Assembly (NCBI GenBank): GCA_010279815.1
Contig: QEOQ01000508.1
Coordinates: 1,883,129 to 1,947,128, forward strand
Reading direction: 5' to 3'
Length of the DNA: 64,000 nt
Source: Brachionus plicatilis
Taxonomy: Eukaryota > Rotifera > Eurotatoria > Ploima > Brachionidae
Part shown: piece after piece, positions 5,296-58,500 of the stretch
Numbering within the stretch: the first letter of the stretch is position 1
Layout: each line of letters starts with the position of its first letter
Translations under genes and position numbers: made by a program
The notes under the pieces: model-generated
What the model was told of the DNA's origin: nothing
Seen by the model: only the letters and a program-made list of their open reading frames with translations
Database searches by the model: none

Positions 5296-5970
5296 ATGGA
5301 AAATAATTATGACATAATTCCCAATAGTGGTGTTGGTAGTTTATGGCAAAATGATAACCATGAAATAATTTCAAGAGAAAATGATTGTGATTCATCAAAA
5401 ATTGAAAATAAGATAGAAAATCTTGTAGATATTGACGTATTAAATAATTCCAATTATTATAAACAAGGAACACTTGATTTATCTGGCACAAAAAATGTGA
5501 CTGATTTGTTTTTTTGGAAATTGCATCAAAATTTTGCTGGAGATGAAAGCCACAAAGTAAAAATACCGAATAATTTTATTTTAAATGGATGTTCAAACAT
5601 ATCAATATGGTCCTTACATTATTTAAATAAAATTCATAATAAAAATTTATTAAGTTTACCATCGGAAAAAGTAATTTCTAATTCAAATGAAAGCTCAAAC
5701 TTTTAATGAATTTTTAGTTAAATAATTTTTTATCATGTTGTCCGAAAATATCAGAAAGTTTGATGGTATCGTTAAACTACAATTCAGAAACATTGTATAT
5801 CAATGGTAAGATATTTAGTAAACATTAAAATTAACCATTAAATTTTAAAACATAGAGCATCTTTTTGATCATGCTAAGTGTGTTATCATTAATTCGGATA
5901 ATTTTAGTCCAAATTTAATTGAAAAAATTGACAAATCATTAGCTAATCTTCCATCACAGATTTTTTTCAG
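5296..5970 (+). CDS. Roco-type gene, exons 1-3: N-terminal segment
   Basis: The start is the ATG at 5296, after A/T-only leader sequence with stops in frame. About 192 residues. Short LRR-like strings appear (LDLSGTKNVTDLFFWKL, FILNGCSNISIWSLHYL), but too few for a firm call. Donors and acceptors: 5671 GTAATT..TTTTTAG 5717, and 5806 GTAAGA..ACATAG 5855. Exon 3 ends at CAG|GTACTC (5970/5971). The next open frame (from about 6060 or 6093) does not match its phase. Either a microexon, a sequencing slip in a T-run, or a real frameshift sits here. Confidence 0.6.
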
Positions 5971-8900
5971 GTACTCTAAATTAAAGAGCTCAAAAAACAA
6001 ATTTTTAAATATTTTCGAATGCAATCAAGTAAAAAAGCTTAATTTTTAATATTCTCTAGAAATTAAAAAAAAATTGTTTAAGTCCCTTGCAGATTTCTTT
6101 ACTTCTGAAAGAAATTTGGCTGTGTTAACCTATGATACCCGTGAGAATGAAGAAAAAGTACTTGATTCAATTTTATCGCGTTTGCTTATGATGATGGCAA
6201 AAAATATTCTTCCTTGTGGAATTCTTGTACTTGGTGTTGGGCAAGGTGACCAAAATTTGATAGAAAAATTGCAAAAAAATCTGCATAAAAGTCTGGATAA
6301 AATTAAAAAAAAATTAAAAAAAACTATCGACACTTATTTGAAGTATTTTTAAAGACAAAATTAAATCAGAAATTTTTAAAAAATTAATTTTTTTAGTAAT
6401 CTTTCGGAGATAAATATTCATTCTCAAATTGAGTTAAGCAATCAGTTAAATTTAAACGAACACATAGATCTTGTGCTAAATATTTTAAATTTTGGAATAA
6501 TAGACCCAGAAAAAAATCATGATGTACCAGATCGATTTACATGTACAAAAATTAGACCAAAGAATGAGAAAGTTTTAAATTTTTTAAAAGAAAATTTGGC
6601 CAAAATGGAAGAGACAATAAACAAATTAAATCGAAAAAACTTGGCTAGCATGAAAGGATTTACAGCACCACCATCTGCAGTCCAATCAGTTGGAGAAGCA
6701 ATTTGCTATTTATTCGCCAGACCACCAAATTATCAAAATTTTGCCAAAATAATCAACTCAAACGATTTCATAATTCAACTCAAAAATTTTGATTTGAATA
6801 CAGTCAATGATTACAAGCTGAAGCATCTTAAGGATTATGTGCAAATGCAAAATTTCAATCCTACGTATATTGGCGAAATATCTATACCAGCTTCTATGTT
6901 ATGCGAATGGGTACTTAGCGTTTACAATTATTGTAATAATGTGAAATTGGTAACAGATCTTTTTTTGAATTAAATAAAATTTTTATTTTAATTTTTAAGC
7001 TTCAAATTTTTTCGTCAGAAAATTATGATTTTCATTCAATATCAAAATCATCTTATGCAACTTTGAGCTCGTATTTGTACGATAATTCTTTTTATATGTT
7101 CAAATGGAATCTTTATTATGAAGATAAATATGAAAATTCTGAAAAAGAGATAGATGAATTGATTAAAAAATCAATTGATTTAAAAAATGAACCTATTTTG
7201 ACAATTGACGAGCTTAATCAGCTATTTTTGGCAAATGAAAAACTAAAAGAATACCAATCGAACCAATTCAAGCAGCTTTCATTGAGATACGCTAGAGCTC
7301 AAAGTGCTAGGGGTCGATTTTTCTTCAACGAAAAAACTAAATTTATAATAACTGATTTGATTTGGTTGAAAAGTATTTTTGATATTTTGGCAAACAAAGA
7401 GACAAATGAATCAGATTTGAATGATATTTTGGGAACTGGCACACCAGTTTGGAATATAAATGAATTCAAAAAAGAATTACAAAAATTGTGTCCAACTAAT
7501 CAAATATTTGATTATTTAATCTCTTTTTTAAAAGAAAATAGTCTAATCATTGTCACTGATAAAGAGGAAATAATTCCAATATTTTGCTTGAGTAAAAATC
7601 AAAATTCAGCTTTTGTAAGAAATAAAAGACCATATTTAGAATATTTAATTATCTAACATGATTATTGTTTAAGGATAAATGGAGTGATAAATGGTCAGAC
7701 TTGGAATATAAAGTTTCATGGGAGCTATTTTCTCCATTGCCATTCAATGTATTTTCAGAATTTGTATCAATGTTTTTTGATAGCAGAACATGTATAAAAT
7801 TGCGCAAAAATGGATTTTTGTATCAAGACACTCATTTTGATGCTTTGATTAGATATTCGAAAAGAGAAGGTTTTTTTATACCAATTTTAACATCATTTAG
7901 GATAATTTTTTTTTAAGTACAATTATCTGTTAGAATGCTCGACCCAGAGAGATATTTTAATTTAGCTGATAGATCTTTTTTGGATCACTTCAAGACAGCT
8001 TATATGAAATTTTATATTTACCTAAAATATTTAATTTTCAAATCTTCCTCAGTTTATTTAGTAAATTTTCATTTATTAATCAAATTGTTTGATACATTTT
8101 TTTTAGCTTAAACTAGATAGCCAATGTTTTAAGCATCTAATTTTTAATGGTGTAGAAGATAGAGAAAGTAAAAATATTTATGAGAAAGGTACCATACTTT
8201 TTTACAATTGAAATTAAAAATTTAAAATTTAAAATTGAAACTAACTTTTTTTTCAGTCTGGTCTATTGAATTATCTTCTTCCCAGAATTTGCTCGAAATC
8301 AGTCAACATAATTTTGAGAAAAATGATAAAGATGAATCAAAATGTAGCGTTTGTGATATGAAATTTTACAACTTTAAGAAACTAAAAAAAGCATATTTTG
8401 AATTATACATGAACTTCTTTGAAGTACCCTTAGGAAGAGTACCAAAAAAAATGCCAGATCATTTATTTAAAGGAAACAATAGAAAAATTTGGGAGCTTAA
8501 TAGTTATCTACCAAAAATTTATGATGTAAATGAAAACTACTGTGTCTTTATTCTCGATTTTACAAGCGAAAAAATGGTACAAGATTTTTTTATTTGTTTA
8601 TCTGAGTAAGTTTGATATCGAAAATATTTTGTATTCTAACTTTTTGTGTATTAAGAGATACCGTTGAAAGTTCAGAAATATGGATTTATTTGCAAAAAAT
8701 GGAAATAAAATCTGTCAAAACTAAAAATATAAATGTTAGTTATAGCTTACTATCTGAAGAGTCTGATTTAAACAATCAACTTAGTATGGGTGATGTCGTC
8801 AAAATCGAATTTCTAAAAGAGGTTTAAAAGAATTAAAATTTTAAGAAATAAAATATGATTTTTTTGAAGACAAAAAGTGCCACTAAAATTAAATTGCGTC

Positions 8901-11900
8901 TAAATGGTTTAATTTTGCTAGAAGTAGAATGTATCGATTGCAATTTGATACCTCACTTTGGAGTGCTGAGTGACACGCTTGGCATCGAATTTAGAAAAAA
9001 TTTAAAAAAAAATAGTCAATTAAAAATTCATTATTTCAAAGATCGATTAAATTGTTTAATTGATCATTACCTCGAAGTTAGAAACCGTAAAAAGAGCAAT
9101 TATTTTACAACTGCCAAAATAAGTATAAGAAGTTTATTAATTAAATGAAATTTTTTAAATTCTAAACACATATTTTTTCGCAGTCGATGTGAAGGATAAT
9201 TCAGTGTTGGTTCATCTTACGAGGGAAAATTGTGACTATTGGGCGGAAATTAGTGATCTAGACTTGAGACCAGCTGGCTGGTATAATTATACAAGGAAAA
9301 AAAGGGAGAAAAATGAATTTTTTAGCCAAATTGAAAATAAAAACATTAAATTTTATTCTTTAATAAGTAAAATTATTTATTTTGAAAATTTAAAAAAAAA
9401 AAAAAAAATTGTTTTTTAGATTCAAACAAATTAAACCATGAGTTTGATTGGAATGAATTTCTTGAAAAAAATAGCTTTAAGGCAGTTCCATTTGATTTAT
9501 TTACAATTGTAGCCTTTTATATAACACTGTTTATTTAACTTTACTTTTACTTGATGTTTAGGAACAAAAAAGTGGAATGGATCTCTCAGAATTCAAAGGG
9601 AACAATGATTACATTACTCAAAGACCATGCTTATGGAATTCAGAAAAATATATACAATACATACATGATTATATGAAACAGAAATCGATTTGCATGATAG
9701 ATAAACAAGTCAAAATGAAATATGATCAGATAACTGCACCTTTGAGAGGACTTTTACTGTTACCTCAAAACTCTAAAGATCTAGTTAATCCAAATAAGTA
9801 TTCTCTTTTGGACGACTTAAAAATACATATGTGCTGTATGACCCGGCTAAACGATGATCAAACTTTATATGCACACTTACTAAATGCAAAAGGTATTTCT
9901 ATTAAAAAAGAAATGATAAACATGAATGATTTGGTTGTTATATTAATAAGCAGCTATTTAGTCTTCAATTCAAAGGTATTTGATTTTATATTTATTAGTT
10001 TTTGATCTATTTTTCGAATTTCTTCAAAAATTTCATATTAATAGCAGTTTCATATTAATTCTGATTTTTTGATCCAAAATTTTTGATTAAAATTTTTTAG
10101 GAATTTTTCTGTTTTTATTTAATCTTTTAAAATTTACAAATCATTTATTAAGAGACTTTTCTTTAATTTTTTGAATGTGAATTCATTTGAATACCAAAAT
10201 TATTAAATATATGAATAGAATTTTTAATGGAGTAAAAAATATCATTATGACGAAGTTAGTAACTACAAAAAAGTTAAATAAAAAGTTTTCTCTGTTCCTT
10301 TGAGCTATCAATTTCCAGTAACCGAAATTTTTAAATGTTTCACTTATTTAGAAAAATTTATTTTATTTGATTTTTTATTTCATTTGATGAATATTTCAAA
10401 GATAACTGTGTGAATAAATTATTTATCTCATTAAGAATTTAGTTTGAATGACTTTGAGTAATAAAACTTGAAGAAGTTGTAAATAAGAAAAAAAAGCAGA
10501 AATTAAAAAATCGTCCGCATAAGAATTTCGTTAGGCAAAAGTACAATTTTTGATTTTTCTAACAAGGAGATTTTTAGAATTGTCCTTTTTAAATGTTTTT
10601 AAATTTTATTAAAACAAAGAAAACTAGAAAAATTTTCAGGGTATATGTCACTGGAAGTACAAATTTAAAATAAATTCAAAATATATCAAAATAAAATCTG
10701 TTCTTTCAAAATAAATTTAATTTAAGCATTTTTATATTATAGGAATTCCAAATTATTATCAAATTAGTAAAATTAAAAGTTCAGTGAACTTTTAATTTTA
10801 CTAATTTGATAATACTACATGATGTATTGACCATATGTATTAAAATTTTTTAATGCTCATTATTTGAAATGGTTTATCTATGACATCTGAAAAAAGGAAA
10901 GTAAAAAATTTAAATTAATCGAAAGATAAAAATGAATTTAGTTTTTACTAATACTTTTTTAAAGAATAAAATATAATTTTTGTTTTCTCTTAACAAAAAT
11001 AAAGTTCAAATAATTATAGAATAAACTCGCTTTACTTAAATAAAAATGCAAAGATAGTATTACTTCGGTTTAATAAATTTTTGTTTTTAGTGAAATCTCT
11101 TAATAAAAATTCGGTTCATATGAAAATTAGAGCCATGAAAAAAAAAAATTAAATTAATAAATTAATAGACTAGTATTTTAATTTTTTAGTTTGAGTCGAT
11201 TGTGCCTGATAATTGCCAAATTTTCGATGACCAAGATTCGAACTTTGATGAACACGCATTAACTAAGCATATCCGAGACTATTTGAAGTATTTATTTGAG
11301 GAATTGAGTATTTTTTTAAATCTTTGCCAAATGGAATCCAAAATATTTACTGTTAATTTGAAAAAATACCACCCAATTGCAACCAGTAAACAAGAATCAA
11401 TTATTTATAAGTTTGAAAAAAGCCCAACTCCACTGGGTCGATGCTATTATTGCTTTTTAGCTGATTACAAATACAGTCATTCAAGCAGAAAAGAATATTC
11501 TCTAAACGAAAAAATAAATGAATATTCTAAATTTTGTCTCCACTTTGGCATAATAGCTTCCAACCGGATTCTAAATCTTGAAGCTAAATTTGCTAAAAAT
11601 TTCCCTAATTTAATCGAGTTAATTTTAGTCAGTGTGCCATTGGAAATCACTGATCAGAATTTTTTTCAGCATTTTGAAAATTTGATCCATCTAAAATTGT
11701 GGAACAACAATTTAGATTCAATTCCAAAATCAATATTCAAGCTTGAAAAGTTGAAAAGTTTTTCTTTTTTCAATAGAATAGATGCTGATTGTTTAAAATT
11801 TGGTCAAATGAAGAGTCTTGAAACTTTGGAATTGGAAAATTTGGAAATAAAAGACCCAAATCAAAAAGTACGCCTTCCGGGTGAGATGAAAAATCTTAAG

Positions 11901-14900
11901 ATAGCTCGATCTTCGTTTTCTCATTTCATTTTTAAACTAAGGCCAGCAATAGTTATCAATTTAAAATTAATTGGCGTACCAATTTTTGACCTTAAAAAGT
12001 GTCTAAAAAACAGTTCAATAATTGGCAAGGAAAGCTTTACCAGAGAGATTTCTAAAACAAAGCTTTTAAATTCTGATCAATCAAAAAAACTATTTGAATA
12101 CTTTGATTCAAATTCGAATGGGTATTTAGAACCAGAAGAAATTTTAAAACTGAACGCTTTTCTTTTCAAAAAATTTTTGCGTTTAGGTCCAGACTTACCA
12201 AGTATCATTTTTCAAATGACATATTTGGAAACTCTTGATCTAAGCTTTCAATCTATTGAACAAATACCGGATGAAATAGAAAATTTGAAAAATTTATATA
12301 GCCTTATTTTAAATAACTGCATTTTATTGCAAAGCATCAGTCCTAAATTAGCTAATTTGTCATTAATAAAGCTAAGTTTATCTAATTGTCTTTCGCTTGT
12401 GACTCCACCACCTGAAATAGTAGATCGAGGAATGGACTCAGTCATGACTTACCTTAAGAGATTAATATCAGGTTCGGTTGAGTTGAAGAGGACAAAATTG
12501 ATGTTAGTTGGTTTAGGACAGGCAGGGAAAACTTCACTTGCCCAAGCTCTTAAGGGTTTTAAAAAAGAAAAATGCGATGTTACTGATGGCATTAGTATTG
12601 ATGACTGGCATGTGGATTTAGACGATGGGTCTCAACTCTCGTTTTCAATGTGGGATTTTGCAGGCCAAAGTGTCTATTATAACACGCATCAATTTTTTTT
12701 GAGTTCAAGAAGCATCTATTTGTTAGTCTGGAATGTAAGATTGGGAAGTGAATATGCTGGTTTAGAATTTTGGCTTAGTAGCATTAGTTGCCATTCTCCA
12801 AGCGCACCTGTTGTAATAGTTGGAACCCATATTGATCAGGTAATTGATAATTTTACCCAACTTCTATCAAAAAATCATTTATTTTTATAGGTTCCAAAAT
12901 TTACGCTAAATCAGAAAAGTCTAAAATCAAGATTTAAAAATATTGTCGGGTTTTACTTTGTATCATGCATTACAAGTGATGGAATTGGCCAACTAAGAAA
13001 AGATATTATTGACATAACTGTTAAAGAAAATTATATTGGAGAAAAAATTCCTGTAATTAAATTTTTTTTTAATTTTATTTAATCCATCCAAAAAATTTAT
13101 CACGGATGTTTGCACAAAATTTAAAGTTTTTGTTGTAAAGGAAAAAAATTCAATCTCTTCTATTTTCATAAAGAATTTATTTTAAGATATGAAATTGTTT
13201 GAAAAATTAATTTTAGATTTGATATACTTAGAGACTCAAATTAAAATAGCTGAAATGGGCACAGTACTGATTTTTAAATTGTATGTTAACCCTCGGATAA
13301 GGTAAAGTTAATAAAACTCAGTTTATTTGTTTTTTAAATTTTATTTTATTAAATGATAAAATTACACTTATAACAAATACGACAATAGGCCTAGGTAAAC
13401 GTTTTTGTGGAAATATTCGAATATGACGAATAAATTGAAATATTTAATTTTCACTAATTTATTAAGAAAAAACCCGTGTATCAAAAAATAAAATTTATTA
13501 TGTTTTGATACATGGATTTTTCCAGATTAACATTTAAGATTAACCATGATCCGGATTTACCAAGTTAGACTGTAAATTATTATTTGGAAAATAGTCTCTT
13601 TTTCTATTTGAGCTGGTTTACAAGATATTTTTAGCTTATTTTTGTTCTTTTTTAACTTTGCCAAAATTTTCGCAAATTTTGATAAATTTGCATAAAACTT
13701 GGTAAATAACCCGTTTTTCACTTTTGGAATTTTGCAAAATATTACCGAAATTCAAGGAAACTTAAAAACTTATATTGAAAAAAGAATTAGATTTTGATTG
13801 ATTTTAAATTTAATTGGAAGAATTTATTAAACTAGATATTCAAGTTAAATTATTTAAATATCTCCATAAAATCCGTAAAAATTATCGGAAATTGGTGGCT
13901 TAACTGTTGAAAATTTCAAAATTCTAATTATCTAATAGGTATTATAAATCCTAAACTCTATTTCAAATATCATTAAATTCATCATTCAGCTTTATTTTTC
14001 GCAAGAAGGTTCAGGAATCTAACTTCTAAGTCAAGTGCTTAATTACTTCTGAGTTGTTTCTTAGCACAATTAAAAATTTATTTGATGACGAACGAAGAAT
14101 AAAAAAGATTATTTTTTTCAAGAAAGATAAAAGCAAACGAGCTTAAATAATTTGGCCATGAAACTTAGAGATTTTTTCAACAATTAAACCATACTCTTTT
14201 TTTTAATCAAAATAAAATAAATTTGTCATTTATCTAATAAAAATTAAAGAAAGCATGGATAGACTTTGAAAACAGTATAAAAGTGAATGCACCAAAAAAG
14301 CCTTTGATTATGTATGATGAAATTAAATTGATAGCTGAAAAAAATGGTATTTATGATGATCGTGAATTGGAACAGTCGATCCGATTTCTACATGATCTAG
14401 GTTCCTTGCAGTACTTTGAGAATCAGGTTTTGAGAGATAGATTAGTTATCAATCCTCAATGGATAGTTGACGCTTTTGCCAAGATAGTTTCAGTCCAAGA
14501 AACAAGTATTCAAGATGGAAAATTTACAATTGACGAGTTAAAAGAAGTATGGAGTGATTATGAAGAAAATTTGCATGAATGGATGCTTAAATTGACAGAA
14601 GAATTTGATCTTACTTTTTCTTTACAAGACAACAAAACAAGTATAATTCCATGTCTTTTGTCAGATACCGAACCTGAATTCGAGTGGCCAGAAATAGATC
14701 ACAAATCTTCCATTAAAATTAAACACTTTAAAGTGATATACACTTTTGACTATCTTCCTATCGGTTTATTCAACCGAATTCAAGTCAGACTCTATCAATA
14801 TGGAGACAATTCAATAATTTGGAAAAAAGGGTCATTGTTGAAAAAAAATTCACATTTGGCCATGATCACCCAACTGGATAATCTTCCTATCATTCAAGTG

Positions 14901-17900
14901 AAAGTACAAGGTACAAAACCAGAAAATATTGTCTTGGTAATACATGAAGCAATTGAGACACTAATCAATGATTCATTTAATGGACTTAAATATGACTTTA
15001 GTTTTCCTTGTCCCGATTGTGTTGACTCCCAATCGATTGATCCCCATCTGTTTAGCTCTGTTCTGCTCAAAAGAGCAAGTGAGTTGAAAGCGCCCTTTTT
15101 ACAGTGTGCCAAAAACTTTCATGCAGTGTCAATAGAGGAAATGATGGCCATAATGCCTATTGATGAATCGAACAACTTTGACTTGAATCTCGAGTATTCG
15201 ATCAGGGACTTAAAAAATCTAAGGGATAACTTTAAATTTGACATTATGTTTTGGTATTGTGAGCAAGACAGAGTTCTTGACCAGCAAAAATCTATTGACC
15301 CTTTAAATGTCATTAGAGCCATTGAGACCCAAGGATACAAAATATGGTACAGTAGTACTCCATCTAGTGAAAAATTTGATAAAATAACCAGCATTATAAA
15401 GCAGTCCAAATTAGTTATATTCGGCGTGTCAGACAATTTTTCCATGGATCCAAAAAGTATTCAAATATTTGAATTGACCAAAAATCTTATCAGAAAAAAC
15501 TATTTTCTAATTGAGTTTGGATTATTGGGAGCCCGAAAATGGCTTTTGAATCCAATTTTTGCCTCGTCATGTGCTGACTTTCGGATCATAATGCAGGATC
15601 CTAAGCGATATGCAACAAAAATAGCCGATACATTGGAATCAATAGAAAAAATTGTTCAAGTTGATCCGAAAAAAGAAAGCGGTACAAAGCAGCCTGATGT
15701 GTTTATAAGTTATTGTTGGGCAAATTCCCATGAAGCTATAAAAAAAGGGTCCAAGGCAACAAATAAAAGTCTCGGTTGGCTGGATCCGAGAAGTTTGGTG
15801 AAATTTTTTGCCGATAGTGGAATTCATGCATGGCTAGATGTTGACAATTTGGACTCGACAACTCAAATGTTTGGCGAGATAACCAGAGGAATGAATTTGG
15901 CCAAAGTTATTGTGGCTTGTGTTTCAGACGAATATGTCGGGTCACAAAATTGTAAATTAGAATTTAGATTCGCCCATATATCACTCAAATTGCCGATCAT
16001 AAAAGCTGTTGTTGGCCTTGGTAATGAATGGCGCAAAAATGAGATTGCTTTTTTGGGAAGCAATTATCCAGAAGTTAATTTTCAATATGAAACTCAAGGT
16101 AAATAAAAATTCACTTAACATTTCTTAATTATTATCTCTAAAAACTAATATAATTTAAAAGCATTAAAATTTGAATAATTTTCTTTAACATTCAATTAAA
16201 GTTTGATTGATTTTAGATTTAATTGAAAAAATTAAACAACAACATATTCAAATTAAATTTTTTAAATTTCCATATAAAATCATTAAGAAATTAGACTAAC
16301 CGAAAATTGACCACTTATAAGTTAAAATTTAATGATTGATATATTGATCACTGAATAGTTAATGCTGCCTAGTTAATGTTAATGCTGCCTAGTGAATAGT
16401 TAATTTTAACAAGTAGAGCGTCTGAAATCATCTCTACTTCGTGGCAATCTTTATTCGAGGAAATTTATATGAATCCAATAAACAGCATCCCACAAGATGG
16501 GTCAGACAGCTGAGTCCAAAAAAATGCAACATGAATATTTTGTACATTCTGGACAAAAACAGTTCTGATCTAATGCTAAATAGTGCTTTCCATCCCATAA
16601 AAACAGATTTATAGTGGGTATTTTCAACTTAATCCGTGTCACAGCAAGACTTTGTTCTACTGAAAGCATTCAGCATTAAAAGGACCAAATGGATTTTTTT
16701 TTCTTCATTATCAATCCATTAATGAAGACAAAATAAATATTAAATAACACAAAAGAAAAAATGGAATCTTTAAAAATATTTAAAAAAAAATCTTTTACTT
16801 TTATATAATATTTAATCATTGATTTTTTTCCAGCAAATAAATACCTTAAAAACCGGTTTTGGTAAGAAACCTTCTCATCGATTAGTTATAAAATGTTTCC
16901 AAGAGTTATTTAAGCATGCGAAAAGAACTTTAAAATAATTAATTAAATTTTGGAATAGCTTTGTATCCAATGCTGTGAATTTTTATATTTAAAATTAAAG
17001 GGTGAATTTTTTTGAGTCTATTATTTTATGAGAAATCGTTCTTTAAAAAAAATAGTTAAAAATCATGTATCGATTTCTTAACTTTTAAAAAATACCGTAA
17101 TACTCTTGATTGCACCGTCCATCACCAAAGATCCAAATTTTACCATTTCATAATTTAAAATTAACAATTTTAGAAGCGTTTCCAATTCTTTTAAATTATG
17201 TGAAGCAAGAATTGAATAAAATCGAGGAAAAATGCACCAAAAATGATTCAGAGGATCAAATCTTTGCCGAAGATTCTAATATTAGTGCTTACAAGGAGCT
17301 GTACGAATTGACACAGCGCAAATTTTTGCGTCAAATTATTCAATTTTCAGATGAAGCTTCGACAATTCGTTCATATCCTCGACTTTTCTTTTTAGATTTA
17401 GTAGACGAAGACAAAATTCAAAATTTAATATACAAAAAGCAAATTGATATATCCGAGCCAGAAAAAGAAGAATATGAGGGAAAATTATCAATGGATCTAG
17501 AAGAAATGTCAGACTCAAAGAAATTTGCTGTTTGTATTCGACCAATGTGTGAACATGATGAATGTTGGCATTTTTCAGATATTTTTGTTTTTTATCCTAA
17601 TGTCTTGGCTTCAAATTGTGTTTATTTACTTAGAATCATGACCATACTAAGGAATTGCAGTTTTTCTAGCGAATTCGGAGTATTAATTTCAGAGAAAAGC
17701 GAAAATTTGCTTCAAGAAATAAAAGAAAAAGAAGCTGAAAATTCAACTAATATAAGGGATTCGTATAATAGTTTTAGGAGCTATTTTATAGAAAAATATG
17801 AAAACGATGAGTTTTATTTTTCTAAAGAATTTTTAAGAAATCAAAATGAATTTTTGTTTGGCCTAAACAAATATGAATTAAAGAATGGAAAGGTTTTATG

Positions 17901-18033
17901 GCTCTGTGCTGAGCATGCCCATGCTGCTGGTGGGAAAATGATAAGTGATCAGAAAAAATCTGGTTACAATCGAAATCGAGAAAAAGATAGATTTTTTGAA
18001 GAAATCAGTAAAGTTAACCAAAATATCATTTAA
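5296..18033 (+). CDS. Giant multi-domain Roco-family protein (Roc-like/dynein-stalk/COR/MBT/LRR-EF/Roc/COR/TIR-TIR), about 20 exons
   Basis: Exons read from the sequence: 5296-5670, 5718-5805, 5856-5970, about 6093-6342, 6397-6949, 7000-7614, 7674-7869, 7918-8060, 8107-8188, 8257-8605, 8656-8821, 8870-9122, 9184-9366, 9420-9508, 9562-9975, 11190-12839, 12891-13052, 14250-16098, 16834-16861, about 17174-18033. Except for two junctions (5970 to 6093 is one base out; 16861 to 17174 is out of phase) every intron is GT..AG and every join keeps frame. The estimated product is about 2,800 residues and intracellular (no signal peptide or TM). The P-loop, DxxG and THxD motifs and a TIR domain point to a GTP-switched signalling or NAD-cleaving effector. 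The 9975/11190 join rests only on phase and on the absence of a start codon in the 11190 exon, so two neighbouring genes remain possible. Confidence 0.75.
6074..6949 (+). CDS. Roco-type gene, exons 4-5: degenerate Roc-like segment and dynein-stalk/MTBD homology
   Basis: The exon around 6093-6342 encodes RNLAVLTYDTRENEEKVLDS...GILVLGVGQGDQ. This matches the later part of Roc domains (where active copies have LLVWD..., a WL helix and VGTHxD), but P-loop and THxD are gone. After a 54-bp intron, 6397-6949 encodes a coiled-coil-like stretch and then NLASMKGFTAPPSAVQSVGE, AICYLFARPPNYQNF, FIIQLKNFDLNTVND, LKDYVQMQNFNPTYIG and MLCEWVLSVYNYCN. These follow the known order of the dynein heavy chain stalk tip: pre-MTBD motif 'xxPPxxVxxVxEAxCxLxxxxP', then 'FLxxLxxFDxxxI', then 'NPxFxPExVxxxSxAxxxLCxWVxA'. 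I regard this homology as strong. Whether it binds microtubules is unknown. Confidence 0.72.
7000..8188 (+). CDS. Roco-type gene, exons 6-9: second dynein-like piece and COR-like domain
   Basis: The acceptor TTTTTAAG at 6999 continues the frame. The first 60 or so residues (SKSSYATLSSYLYDNSFYMF...) resemble the dynein segment between AAA5 and AAA6 (S...YFxxxxLxxxxxLYQYSLxxF). This suggests a dynein piece with its middle removed. From about 7190 a COR-like domain follows: PILTIDELNQLF, FIITDLIWLKSIFDIL, a winged-helix end (ENSLIIVTDKEEIIPIFCL), then ELFSPLPFNVFSEFVSMFF and CIKLRKNGFLYQDTHFDALI. These correspond to the 'FDFxPxGFFxRLxVRL' and 'LWxxGxxL...ALxE' signatures of COR, as in the second COR of this gene. 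Introns of 59 bp (7615-7673), 48 bp (7870-7917) and 46 bp (8061-8106) keep phase. Confidence 0.65.
8257..9975 (+). CDS. Roco-type gene, exons 10-15: Cys-pair segment and MBT repeat region
   Basis: Exon 10 begins after TTTCAG at 8256 and includes KCSVCDMKFYNFKKL, a C-x2-C pair of unknown role. Exons 12-13 (8870-9122 and 9184-9366) join in frame to give FTTAKIIDVKDNSVLVHL and DYWAEISDLDLRPAGWY. These are the core of an MBT repeat (AxVxDVxDxxLLVHFDGW.DxYDYWxDxxSPDIxPVGW). Exon 14 then gives FDWNEFLEKNSFKAVPFDLF, the usual start of the next MBT repeat (FxWxxYLxETxxxAAPxxLF), joined to exon 15. After its first 15 or so residues exon 15 diverges and is unrecognised. MBT repeats normally read methyl-lysine on histones or other proteins, so this is an unexpected neighbour for Roc-COR. 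Ligand-pocket residues were not checked. Confidence 0.68.
9976..11189 (+). other. Long intron (1.2 kb) carrying a near-perfect hairpin
   Basis: Donor AAG|GTATTT, acceptor ATTTTTTTAG. Both ends are in phase 0. No open frame inside. It holds a 30-bp perfect inverted repeat (10754-10814). If the region is really two genes, this interval would contain the end of one and the promoter of the other. Confidence 0.5.
10754..10814. repeat. Perfect 30-bp inverted repeat with a 1-nt loop
   Basis: 10754-10783 is exactly complementary to 10785-10814 with a single G between. The sequence is AT-rich and not part of a recognised element. It could be a miniature foldback transposon or a transcribed hairpin. 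Confidence 0.9.
11190..13052 (+). CDS. Roco-type gene, exons 16-17: LRRs with embedded EF-hand, and Roc GTPase
   Basis: The 1650-bp exon has no ATG near its start and is open from the acceptor, so it is internal. LRR-like strings include LIHLKLWNNNLDSIPKSIF, LETLELENLEI and YLETLDLSFQSIEQIPDEI. Between LRRs lies DSNSNGYLEPEE, a 12-residue EF-hand loop with acidic or amide ligands at 1, 3, 5, 9 and 12 and Gly at 6, suggesting calcium binding. The Roc domain follows with P-loop GLGQAGKTS, switch II DFAGQSVYYNTHQFF and G4 VGTHID, split by a 51-bp intron (12840-12890). Exon 17 (54 codons) has the G5-region FYFVSCITSDGIGQLR typical of Roco proteins (S-x-x-xGIxxLRxxI). All GTP-binding signatures look intact. 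Confidence 0.85.
13053..14249 (+). other. Intron (1.2 kb) between Roc and COR coding exons
   Basis: Donor CCT|GTAATT, acceptor ATTAAAG, phase 0. The join restores IPKAWIDFENSI, the conserved start of COR. Nothing else is recognisable inside. Confidence 0.6.
14250..16098 (+). CDS. Roco-type gene, exon 18: COR domain, TIR-like domain and TIR domain
   Basis: 616 codons. The COR domain opens with AWIDFENSI, IRFLHDLGSLQYF and INPQWIVDAF. Its second half has IYTFDYLPIGLFNRIQVRLY and IIWKKGSLLK, the standard COR signatures. A first TIR-like domain (FDIMFWYCEQD...GYKIWYSS...KLVIFGVSDNF) has lost the usual S/R-rich box. The second (DVFISYCWANS...GIHAWLDVDNL...FGEITRGMNLAKVIVACVSD...YVGSQNCKLEFRFA) is a good TIR. 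The Glu in NCKLEF sits where NAD-cleaving TIRs (SARM1 type) have their catalytic Glu (WCxxE). LRR-Roc-COR-TIR order suggests an innate-immune or cell-death sensor. That function is inference. The exon ends CAAG|GTAAAT in phase 1. Confidence 0.85.
16099..16833 (+). other. Intron (735 bp) with a short tandem duplication
   Basis: Around 16350-16405 the string TTAATGCTGCCTAGT is repeated with small variants. On the minus strand near 16490-16615 a short open stretch has a C-x2-C...CC pattern with one TGA; it could be a transposon scrap. No clear gene. Confidence 0.4.
16834..18033 (+). CDS. Roco-type gene, C-terminal tail exons
   Basis: A 28-bp exon is framed by TTTTTTCCAG and GTAAGA (16834-16861). 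It reads ANKYLKNRF in the right phase, but its end does not match the next open frame, so one more small exon probably lies in 16870-17170. The last exon is open from at least 17110. The most likely acceptor is AACAATTTTAG at 17173, and the stop is at 18031-18033. It encodes a Lys/Glu-rich segment, then FAVCIRPMCEHDECWHF (a dense Cys/His cluster), CVYLLRIMTILRNC and a terminal LWLCAEHAHAAGGKM. Similar Cys/His-containing tails follow COR in other animal LRR-Roc-COR proteins as I recall them. The function is unknown. Confidence 0.6.
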
Positions 18034-31097: not shown

Positions 31098-32404
31098 TTA
31101 CTGTTTGAAATTTATTATAAAGCAAATAGTTAGACCAATTAATAGACAAATTAAATTTGAATAAATGTGCGACGAAACGGATAGAAAATTATCTTCTTTG
31201 TTAAAAATCCTATTTAAATACTCTTCATCAGAGAGTTTGATGTCTTTGATTAATTTAGACGAATTGGAATTTTTTCGATGCAATTTAACATGTGTAGACT
31301 CACTTAAAGTAAATTTGTCTTGATAGACCATTATCCTAGAGACTATAGGCCTTGGTGATGTAAAATGTCGCAAGACTAATTCATCCAAAAAAATTTCGGA
31401 CTTGGAGGCAGTTTTTCCATTAATAGCAAAGCATTCATATTTGCCATAGTCATTCGAAGTTAAATTTTTAATAACCAAAATACTGATTGTCACATAGTCA
31501 CTGTGACTAAAAATAGCAAAATCATATTTTTCTTTTCTATCAATTCCATTTACAATAACATGATCTCCTCTCATCCAGTAGTGGTTGATTAAAGGATTTG
31601 ATTTTATCTTGCACTCAAGTCGAGCATCCATTCCACGGAATTGTTCAATTTTTGATTCTGTCTGCACTTCCGGTCCGAATTCAACAGACACCTTGATTTT
31701 TCTTGAAGCCGCTGGCAAAACAGAATTGTTAGCAATGCACTCATATACTCCAGTGTGGTGCCGTGAAATATTTCGAATGACCAATGTGTCGCCTTCATGA
31801 ATTACATGGTCATAAGTCTTTGGATTTTGAATGAAAACTCTTTCATTTCTGATGCGTATTTTGCGGAAAAACCATGACACCTGAGGAGCAGGTATGCCTT
31901 CTGCATGACAATAAAGCCTCAGATCTTCACCTTCTTTTATCGGAGATGGATTAATGGTCGACCTTTCTTCTATTATTTTTGGCGGAACTATAACAAAAAA
32001 TTAATTCTTTAATTTTTATCTGATTTTTAACCCTTACGTTGAACATTAAGGTGTATTTTTGATATAATTTGAGGTTCGGTGTTTACTTGGCAAATGTATT
32101 CGCCAGCATCGTCTTCATTAATTGAACTGATTGATAGTGACCAGTCTGAAACATATCCCTGAGGTAGTCTGATCCGATCGTCATTGGTGACTTTGTAATC
32201 GCCAATGGTCAAAATGTCCATATTTGACACTTTAATCCATGCCACTTTGTGGTCGCCTAGATTTGTGATGAAACATGGCAAAGTGGCCGAATTTCCTATA
32301 ATTACTGTGAGATTTTCGAATGCGCGATCGAACGTAGGCATGAGATATGTGGCTGTACACAAAAAAATATTATACAAATTTAAAATTAAAATTTTCAAAT
32401 TCAT
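31098..32404 (-). CDS. Three-Ig-domain cell-surface protein, lachesin/IgLON-like, 418 aa
   Basis: Two coding exons: 32404-32038 and 31987-31098, joined across a 50-bp GTAAGG..GTTATAG intron in phase 1. The N-terminal 20 residues are a signal peptide. Ig1 (about 30-120) has LPCFITN...VAWIK...DDAGEYICQVNTEP. Ig2 begins after PPKIIEE (about 124-223) with LRLYCHAEGIPAPQVSWFFR and GVYECIANN. Ig3 (about 225-320) has ARLECKIKSNP...YWMRG and DYGKYECFAING. Each has the Cys-Trp-Tyr-x-Cys pattern. After a Lys/Ser-rich linker the C-terminus is hydrophobic (SNLICLLIGLTICFIINFKQ), suiting a GPI signal or a membrane anchor. 'VPPKI'-type Ig1-Ig2 linkers and three Ig domains typify lachesin/neurotrimin adhesion proteins of neurons and epithelia. 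An acceptor (CTTTCAG, about 32430) upstream of the ATG suggests a 5' UTR intron, with the promoter farther right. Confidence 0.85.
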
Positions 32405-55523: not shown

Positions 55524-58500
55524 TTATAAAAATAAAATTGAAGAATCGGATCCGTTTTTGTCATCTTCTTTTTTTACCTGAGCATTAGACGAAAGTAGCG
55601 AACGTTCACATTTTACCATTATGGACACTTTGTTTGACATGGATTGACTATTGGCGCTGCTGTTTTGGTTTGAGTCCGCCAAAAGACTACTTTGATTGCT
55701 TTGAGTAGTAGAATTAATTTGGTTATTTATTTGAATATTATTGCTAGATTGACTAATATTATGGGAAAGCCGTGTTATATTAGCAGTGCCACTAGTAGCA
55801 TCTAAGTTCTTTGAATAGAAATTCATTTAAAAAGCGAATAGTGCTGTGTTTGTGGGTGTTAGTTTAGGCTAGATAAGCCTGTTTGATAGTAGGATTTAAA
55901 TAAAACTTCTCGTTACCTCTTTTTTTTCAAGATCAATGAACTTTTTTTCCAAGTCTTGTTTCTCGCTGTCCAGTTGAACCTTTGCAACAAAAAAAAAATC
56001 TAAATTAAAAAATTAAAAAATTAAAAAATTAACTAATTCTACCTTGTATTCATCTAGTGCTTTTTTGAGCAGATCAATTGACTTGTCTTTGTTTTCAATT
56101 GATTTTTTTAGCTCGAAATTTTCTTTCTTTGTTTTGGTGTAATCGTTCAATATGGTTCTGAGCATTTGTTCAAAGCTGTTCCTTGGCATCGACTGAAGTG
56201 TATTCTCGTCAAAAAATGCATTCTTTACATCTGCTTTGTCACTGCAAACACATGCTGAAATCGATTGATCGAGATCAGCGTATATACAGCACGATTTAGA
56301 TTGGTATCCAGAATCGGCTGATTTGTTCGTAGTGGTCGAATAGTCCGATTCAGTGTTTGTCGTAGTGGACAAAGTGTCGCAGTTTTTTGGACTATATGTT
56401 TGAAAAACTTTTGACTTTTGGAACAATTCTGAATTGATGTTAATTATGGACATTTGAGATTCTTTGGACGACGAGGCACCATTGAAAGTCTCGGCCCGCT
56501 TTGGTATGCTTATTTGATTATCCTGGCTTGTTTTGGTTATGGTCTCTCCGGCACTGCTTGCACTTCTCATCAAATTAACTGTCATATGATTTGAGAGCAA
56601 ATTGTTAAATGTACAAATTAGACCAGCTATGTCCGAGCTGATGGTGAGCTCGTCTTGCCGAGGCTCGCTAGTGGTCACTTTATCTTCCACATTTTCCTTG
56701 TTCACTTCTATAAATGGCGTAATATGTGTGTGGACCAAAATTAGCCATTGATTTCTGGATATTTCGTCCGGAAATTTAACTTCGAATATTTCGTTGGTAA
56801 TTGTATGGGCAATGTATGTGATCAGAGATTCGTGAGTATACGATTTGGTGGATGCACTTTGGCCAGAATTTGCATTTGTTTGATTCAGCTTCATCGAATT
56901 GGATTGACTTACTGTCCTCTGATGATGTATTTGGCTCGATTGGCTCTGAAGATGATTTATATCAGTTTCTTTCGGTCTGATAAGTATACCATAATTGCAA
57001 ATAATTACACTTTTCTTTAAAGATTAAGAATTTTATTATTTTTTTTTATTAAAATTTAAAAAATTAAAAAAATTTACTGTATCATTCATAAATGTGTATT
57101 TGGATGATTTTTCATTGTATTGAAGGAAAACAATCATGTCATTCATAGTGACACAAGTCACATTTTTGTATTCTTTGCCTTTCATTGACATCACTTTTAC
57201 TGTTACCTGATTAAGGCTGATTATTTTTCGATTTGGTTTACTCGTCAAATCTGATTTCTAATCAAAAAGAAATTAAAAAATATATATCGCTAAAATTCTG
57301 AAATAAACGAGTGAATATTTTTAAAATAGACTTTGACACGAAAGAAATTATTCAAAAATTTGAATTTTTTTTAATTTAATAAAATATTGAAAATCTTCAC
57401 GGAATAAATTAATAAAAAAAAATGGTGTTTTCTTGGACTCACATTTATTAAATTTTGAATGTTATTAATTATTTTTATAGTGAGATTTTTTTTTAAATAC
57501 AAACATTTTTTTATATTATTGATTATTTTTTTATTATTTAAAATAAAATTTCATAGCAATTAGCAGGATTGTCTAAAAGTACCAAATTAAAGTCCAAGTC
57601 ATTAAAATAAAAGCCCGACTTGACTTGAGACTTGGGACTTTTAAACAACTCTGACAATTAGTTATATTATTTATACAAATATTGTCTTTATTAATTAAGT
57701 TATAAAATCTTTGTTTTTTATTTCAAGTCAAACTATTTTAAAATTTTTCAATATTATTTACAAAAACTTTAGTAATATGTTTTTGCTGTAAAACAATTCA
57801 AAATTCAAAATTTCTTATATACCTTATTAAAGTTCTACATAAAAACTTAAATATGAAATTCTTATTTTTAAATCCAAAACGTGCTCGAAAAGAAATAATC
57901 TTGATTTTTTTAATTGAGAATATTAAAAATTAAAATTAAAAAAAAAAGTTAAAATATATGAAACTTTTAATTTAACTAAAAATTTTTGAAAATTTTCTCA
58001 ACTTGATACCTTTTTGTACGTGTTATAAATCCTCACCCAAAAAATATTAATAATTTAAAAATTTCAAATTTTACCAAATATTCTTTAAATTTTTTATAAT
58101 TGATACATATAATTGTTTTAAAACCTAACCCGAATAAAATTTTGAATTCATTTGAAATGTTTTAAGCTATTTTTTAATTGTTTATTAAAAAGTAAAAAAA
58201 TTACAGTAAAGGCTCGCTCCTCGATATTTTTCTCATATTTGACAAAAGATTTTGTCTGCGATTTTTGATCAAAATTGTCCAGGTATTTTTTGAATTCATT
58301 ATAATTTTGATAGAATGCAACTGCATCATTGACTCGGCTTAGAATAGATCTCAAATTTTCCAATGATTTATTCAACAGATCGATCTCGATCTTGTCGTCT
58401 TGGCTATTTGTAAGTATGTTTTCAATCAATGTCAAATATTTGGTCAAACGTTGAGTAATAATAGTCAGGCAATCCGGGATATGGTATCTTTTCAACCAAG

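Follow-up and report, generated by a model that had tools for sequence, protein, structure and literature searches.

A dynein microtubule-binding domain inserted in a double-Roco TIR protein of the rotifer Brachionus plicatilis

The microtubule-binding domain (MTBD) at the tip of the dynein stalk has, to our knowledge, not been described outside dynein heavy chains. Among the open-access literature, judged from listings, no paper was found that reports it in a Roco or any other non-dynein protein. Long Roco-TIR proteins that give no match to this domain are present in spiralians: in Plakobranchus P0018, Owenia P0019 and Adineta P0005, the MBT, LRR, Roc, COR-A, COR-B and TIR domains follow one another in the order that they have in the protein described here, with MBT, Roc, COR-A, COR-B and TIR_2 above the Pfam cut-off in all three and LRR above it in P0018 and P0019 and below it in P0005. 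The present work concerns a gene at positions 5296-18033 of a 64,000-nucleotide stretch of the Brachionus plicatilis genome (the “window”, G000:C1:1883129-1947128, with a G+C content of ~26%), a genome which was searched over 102.9 Mb in 173 contigs. Unless noted otherwise, positions refer to the forward strand of the window. A first-pass annotation of this stretch had supposed that the whole mixture of domains was not known in one protein, but an Aplysia survey (PMC9334734) names proteins in which TIR, ROC and COR occur together with MBT or EF-hand, and the only novelty of the architecture is the dynein MTBD, which that annotation listed without singling it out. The protein is read here as a spiralian double-Roco TIR protein with a captured dynein MTBD that may serve as a microtubule-tethered sensor, a reading to which we assign a probability of about 0.5.

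The MTBD, together with short stumps of the stalk helices CC1 and CC2, occupies 6563-6946 (residues ~355-482) and lies wholly inside exon 5. The Pfam family MT (dynein stalk/MTBD) matches residues 365-477 with 47.2 bits, which is above its cut-off, and the dynein origin of the segment was evaluated on its sequence and its predicted fold, which agree in identifying it as an MTBD. The sequence is nearest to those of axonemal dyneins, and the donor was probably an axonemal dynein heavy chain. The “dynein stalk” of the first-pass annotation is therefore correct as regards a dynein-derived segment, but what is present is a microtubule-binding tip with coiled-coil stumps, ~20 residues of each stalk helix being left, and not a whole stalk.

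Matches to Pfam MT occur at 27 places in the genome, 4 of them in Roco genes. Three paralogues of the window gene, designated P1, P2 and P3, align along its length: P1 is on the same contig (C1) and strand, starting ~24 kb upstream and ending ~9 kb before the window gene, P2 is at C1:2.48-2.50 Mb, and P3 is on C65. Two further Roco genes, C4 and C54, are named by their contigs. C4 (G000:C4:1653000-1668800) is a fifth MTBD-Roco gene which is missed by Pfam MT and scores 112 bits with the family's own MTBD profile. C54 (G000:C54:236000-250000, minus strand) is a double-Roco MBT gene which provides a natural control, since it has first-LRR, first-COR and MBT matches and gives no match to the MTBD profile or to the Roc-like piece; by eye, one exon joins its first Roc-like segment to its first COR without an MTBD between them. 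Of the 49 proteins in a full-length search, just two gave a match to the MTBD profile, namely P0001, a public B. plicatilis protein, and P0049, which is a true dynein; P0002 and P0003, from B. calyciflorus, begin downstream of the MTBD position, and the remaining 45 are non-Brachionus relatives. A further search, of the best 7,993 candidates, added P0050, a B. plicatilis protein named “dynein heavy chain axonemal” which is 94% identical to P1, and P0051, a B. calyciflorus protein of 708 residues. Because the alignment of P0051 stops at residue 661 of the window protein and that of P0003 starts at residue 664, and each is recorded on a single 26,942-base contig, the B. calyciflorus gene has probably been split by annotation. 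MTBD-Roco genes are thus found as five paralogues in this genome and in two Brachionus lineages.

In a tree of MTBDs, the five Roco MTBDs that were included (four from this genome and P0051) form one clade with support of 98/95, apart from the true dyneins, for which P0049 and 13 sequences from this genome were included. A tree of the COR-TIR region, built from 21 of 53 rows, unites the MTBD genes with P0002 (100/100) in a group that has two parts, one of C4 and P0003 and the other of the window gene, P1, P2, P3 and P0002; the bdelloids come next (96/92), and C54 falls outside these, at a rotifer fork with support of 94/92. Two changes of the MTBD label are counted on this tree because P0002, the N-terminus of which is not known, was left unlabelled. 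These trees are most simply consistent with one capture of the MTBD in the Brachionus lineage, after its split from the bdelloids and before the duplications described here. Some features of the data weigh against so simple a history: the first-LRR piece is found in 13 of the 45 non-Brachionus relatives, in many of which the insertion site cannot be seen because the sequence is short or its N-terminus has diverged too far; the protein searches scored the best ~8,000 candidates and may have passed over other carriers; the MTBD of C4 was not in the MTBD tree; the placement of C54 is unsure because its branch is long; and C4 and P0003 give no MBT match, so that not every copy keeps every domain.

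The gene itself runs from an ATG at 5296 to a TAA at 18033 in 19 exons that encode 2,819 residues, with GT-AG introns throughout and no internal stops. The exons are 5296-5670, 5718-5805, 5856-6028, 6083-6342, 6397-6949, 7000-7614, 7674-7869, 7918-8060, 8107-8188, 8257-8605, 8656-8821, 8870-9122, 9184-9366, 9420-9508, 9562-9975, 11190-12839, 12891-13052, 14250-16098 and 17174-18033. P1 also has 19 exons, with the phase equal to that of the window gene at every boundary, an agreement which is partly by design, since similarity between paralogues was used as a bonus in fitting the models, although each frame still had to be open. The best public match, P0001 (“serine threonine-kinase pats1 [Brachionus plicatilis]”), is 96-97% identical to the window protein and has the same exon joins through exon 16, with small differences in exons 1, 6, 10, 12 and 13; it ends where its reading frame continues past the Roc exon into the following intron. 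The last intron (16098/17174) has no short counterpart, because it is ~1 kb in P1 as well, and the B. calyciflorus proteins P0002 and P0003 are continuous through it. The single predicted gene of the first-pass annotation is thereby retained, as is its junction 9975/11190, while two of its other junctions are replaced: 5970/6093 is out of phase and gives way to 6028/6083, as in the paralogues and P0001, and 16861/17174 becomes 16098/17174.

It could be argued that the locus comprises two adjacent genes, an N-terminal dynein/COR/MBT gene and an LRR-Roc-COR-TIR gene, because the suspected boundary, intron 15 (9976-11189), is an AT-rich gap of 1.2 kb (1,214 bp) and because the B. calyciflorus copy is annotated publicly as two pieces, albeit divided at another place. 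The same intron is only 53 bp in P1, however, which leaves no room there for a gene boundary, and it is spliced in P0001, which joins the same exons; moreover, spiralian relatives of ~3,000 residues have the N-terminal half and Roc-COR-TIR in one annotated protein. The two-gene explanation is accordingly very improbable, and 5296-18033 is one intact gene. That the architecture is an artefact of assembly or gene prediction, in favour of which nothing was found, has a negligible probability, given that the MTBD stands at this position in public B. plicatilis (P0001, P0050) and B. calyciflorus (P0051) proteins as well as in five loci of this genome. Intron 15 also contains an inverted repeat (10754-10814) in which two perfectly matching 30-bp arms are separated by 1 base, perhaps a small foldback element.

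The N-terminal half into which the MTBD is inserted is collinear with that of nine chosen spiralian relatives. It consists of the remnant of a first LRR block (5467-5805, residues ~58-154), which aligns with the LRRs of mollusc relatives, a degenerate first Roc-like segment with no recognizable P-loop (5856-6396, residues ~155-299), and a degenerate first COR in exons 6-8 (7000-8060, residues 484-801), which several of the long spiralian Roco-TIR proteins share. The identity of this COR is supported by profile-profile comparison, since hhalign gives 95.6% (E 1.3e-8) over 214 columns against a canonical Roc-COR profile, and 20 column shuffles and the reversed profile reach at most 0.3% and a TIR control 0.3%. 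An LRR control scored 96.6%, the source of which is a fragment of P0021's own first COR inside that control. The first Roc-like segment is named by position, because hhalign against canonical Roc gives only 0.3%; it has no Pfam Roc match either, a point against the preferred reading, and its collinear position and the strand pattern in the relatives are what suggest a Roc. The proposal of two Roco units with a decayed first copy thus stands for the COR and is positional for the Roc. A local fusion as the origin of the two units is rejected, since the double unit is common to molluscs and, more weakly, to annelids, and therefore represents an old plan that predates the rotifers.

The domains of the second half were evaluated by Pfam scans of the joined 2,819-residue product, and of single open frames. 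A region without a named family (8107-9070, residues ~802-1067), the equivalents of which in P1 and P3 match no Pfam family, is followed by an MBT repeat in exons 12-13 (9071-9287, residues 1068-1119; 24.4 bits, cut-off 22), part of the usual motif of which is missing in the window copy, and by a conserved segment that extends to 9975. The LRR block (11604-12320, residues ~1452-1690) falls short of the cut-off when the joined protein is scanned (LRR_14 34.1 bits against 40, LRR_8 20.3 against 27) and above it in a single frame (LRR_8 29.6 against 27). Within the LRRs lies a single EF-hand loop, DSNSNGYLEPEE (12084-12149, residues 1612-1633), which scores 17.8 bits with EF-hand_1, below the cut-off of 25.4; a pattern search finds the loop in P1, P2, P3 and P0002 and, slightly altered, in P0005, and gives none in C4 or P0017. 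The Roc GTPase (12495-13052, residues 1749-1862, 77.4 bits) has intact G1 (GLGQAGKTS), G3 (DFAGQ, within WDFAGQ) and G4 (GTHID) motifs, and is followed at 14250-15143 by COR-A (residues 1917-2054, 109.2 bits) and COR-B (residues 2076-2215, 96.3 bits), so that Roc, COR-A and COR-B are all above cut-off and in the order that defines a Roco protein.

The first of the two TIRs (15237-15660, best Pfam stretch residues 2274-2322) is degenerate, with 19.4 bits in the joined protein, below the cut-off of 21.3, and 23.9 bits, above it, in a single frame. The second (15690-16097; TIR_2, residues 2433-2494, 37.7 bits) is above cut-off, and in profile comparison with solved structures it comes nearest to the NADase-type TIR of Cat1 (E 1.2e-4), followed by MyD88 (E 0.02). 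A CxxE motif is invariant in the four second TIRs that were aligned, but it is present in Toll-like receptors as well. The C-terminal exon (17174-18033), which carries a PRLF...CEHxxxWH motif, is 42% identical in P1 and continuous with the TIR part in P0002 and P0003, and the motif recurs in the molluscan proteins P0017 and P0018. The list of 16 Pfam families obtained for the joined product at E values of 5 or less includes no kinase, NACHT or NB-ARC family and no AAA family, two sub-cut-off AAA matches (13.4 and 14 bits) being found in single frames. The domains named in the first-pass annotation are consequently upheld in one protein above cut-off for MT, MBT, Roc, COR-A/B and TIR_2 and more weakly for LRR, EF-hand and the first TIR; its “MBT repeats” reduce to the one repeat detected, and its “tandem TIRs” hold for the second TIR and, in a single frame, for the first.

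Since the two ends of the MTBD leave it side by side, as the antiparallel coiled coil of CC1 and CC2, the domain can be grafted into a loop, and here the dynein tip occupies the Roc-COR joint of the degenerate first Roco unit. There it may anchor the protein to microtubules or cilia. A ligand, Ca2+ or damage would be sensed by the LRR/MBT/EF-hand part, the intact second Roc would switch on GTP through COR dimerization, and switching would gather the TIRs, which might signal by recruiting adaptors or by cleaving NAD+. In this scheme, microtubule binding, sensing, GTP switching and TIR output are deduced from sequence. Changes at putative microtubule contacts, in alignment columns assigned provisionally to mouse numbering, count against it: at the position of mouse R3382 the window gene has E, P1 has N, P0051 has Q, and both P2 and P3 have K, and at that of mouse K3298 the residue is Q or N. 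The roles of these two contact residues are taken from PMC4987762 and PMC4230729. Because the same positions also vary among this genome's own dyneins, the changes are not decisive.

The loss of the basic contact in the window gene, P1 and P0051, the shortening of the stalk helices and the degenerate state of the host Roco unit would all fit an alternative in which the MTBD fold is retained but binds another partner, or is a mere spacer in the first Roc-COR unit. This alternative is rather unlikely, given that the basic contact is retained in P2 and P3, that the MTBD core is conserved at 50-54% identity among four paralogues, and that exon 5 agrees with P0001 at all but 2 of its 184 residues. 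The putative innate-immune role, which is suggested by the combination of TIR, LRR and Roco parts, can be disputed separately, since TIRs by themselves are no proof of immunity and an MTBD most like those of axonemal dyneins would suit a ciliary or cytoskeletal signalling Roco. We consider a purely non-immune role unlikely: the family is expanded and has gene-conversion tracts between tandem copies, features that defence genes often show, and TIR/Roc/COR proteins of a mollusc are among the immune candidates in PMC9334734. The microtubule-tethered sensor is the reading that we prefer; its extension to a naturally evolved group of immune GTPase sensors in Brachionus that are anchored on microtubules, and in which attachment to or loss of the microtubule or cilium would gate GTPase and TIR signalling as a guard of the cytoskeleton, is doubtful.

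The tracts in question are 7072-8020, which is 94.6% identical to P1 over 956 bp with 98% in the intron that it contains, and 15538-16156, which is 88.8% identical over 623 bp. Most other exons are ~59-67% identical; exon 8 reaches 77% and exon 18, the site of the second tract, 74% overall. Judged by these identities, the tracts are gene conversion between tandem copies. Elsewhere in the window, an open frame at 31098-32000 (minus strand) resembles by eye a lachesin-type Ig-domain cell-adhesion protein, and a 336-residue open frame at 56013-57023 (minus strand) has, again by eye, a PH-like start and a coiled-coil end. At G000:C19:226271-250590, small-GTPase matches, several with equal scores, are clustered on both strands and are possibly recent local copies.

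Among known systems, the window protein shares its Roc-COR with LRRK1/LRRK2, DAPK and pats1, but unlike the LRRK and pats1 kinases it has no kinase domain detected by Pfam in the joined product, which makes the public name “serine threonine-kinase pats1” misleading, and LRRK2 binds microtubules through another surface. Its MTBD is alike in sequence and predicted fold to those of dynein heavy chains (DNAH2, DNAH9/17 and cytoplasmic; PDB 3err, 6l4p, 8i3j), but the AAA+ motor families of those chains were not found by Pfam in the joined product, only stumps of the stalk are present, and the host is a Roco protein. P0001, P0050 and P0051 are fragments of MTBD-Roco-TIR genes, so both the “pats1” kinase name and “dynein heavy chain axonemal” misdescribe them, and the architecture explains how each name arose. 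The long spiralian Roco-TIR proteins differ from the window protein in giving no dynein MTBD match. The nearest parallel to the graft is provided by the engineered fusions of the MTBD to seryl-tRNA synthetase (PDB 3err, 3j1t), in which the domain is likewise attached by its two stalk ends to an unrelated protein; those are laboratory constructs and the present one is natural. Natural capture of the MTBD by a Roco-TIR protein suggests that evolution, like laboratory engineering, can move the domain from one protein to another. It also offers a connection, open to experiment, of microtubules with TIR signalling and with Roco GTPases, the kin of LRRK2.
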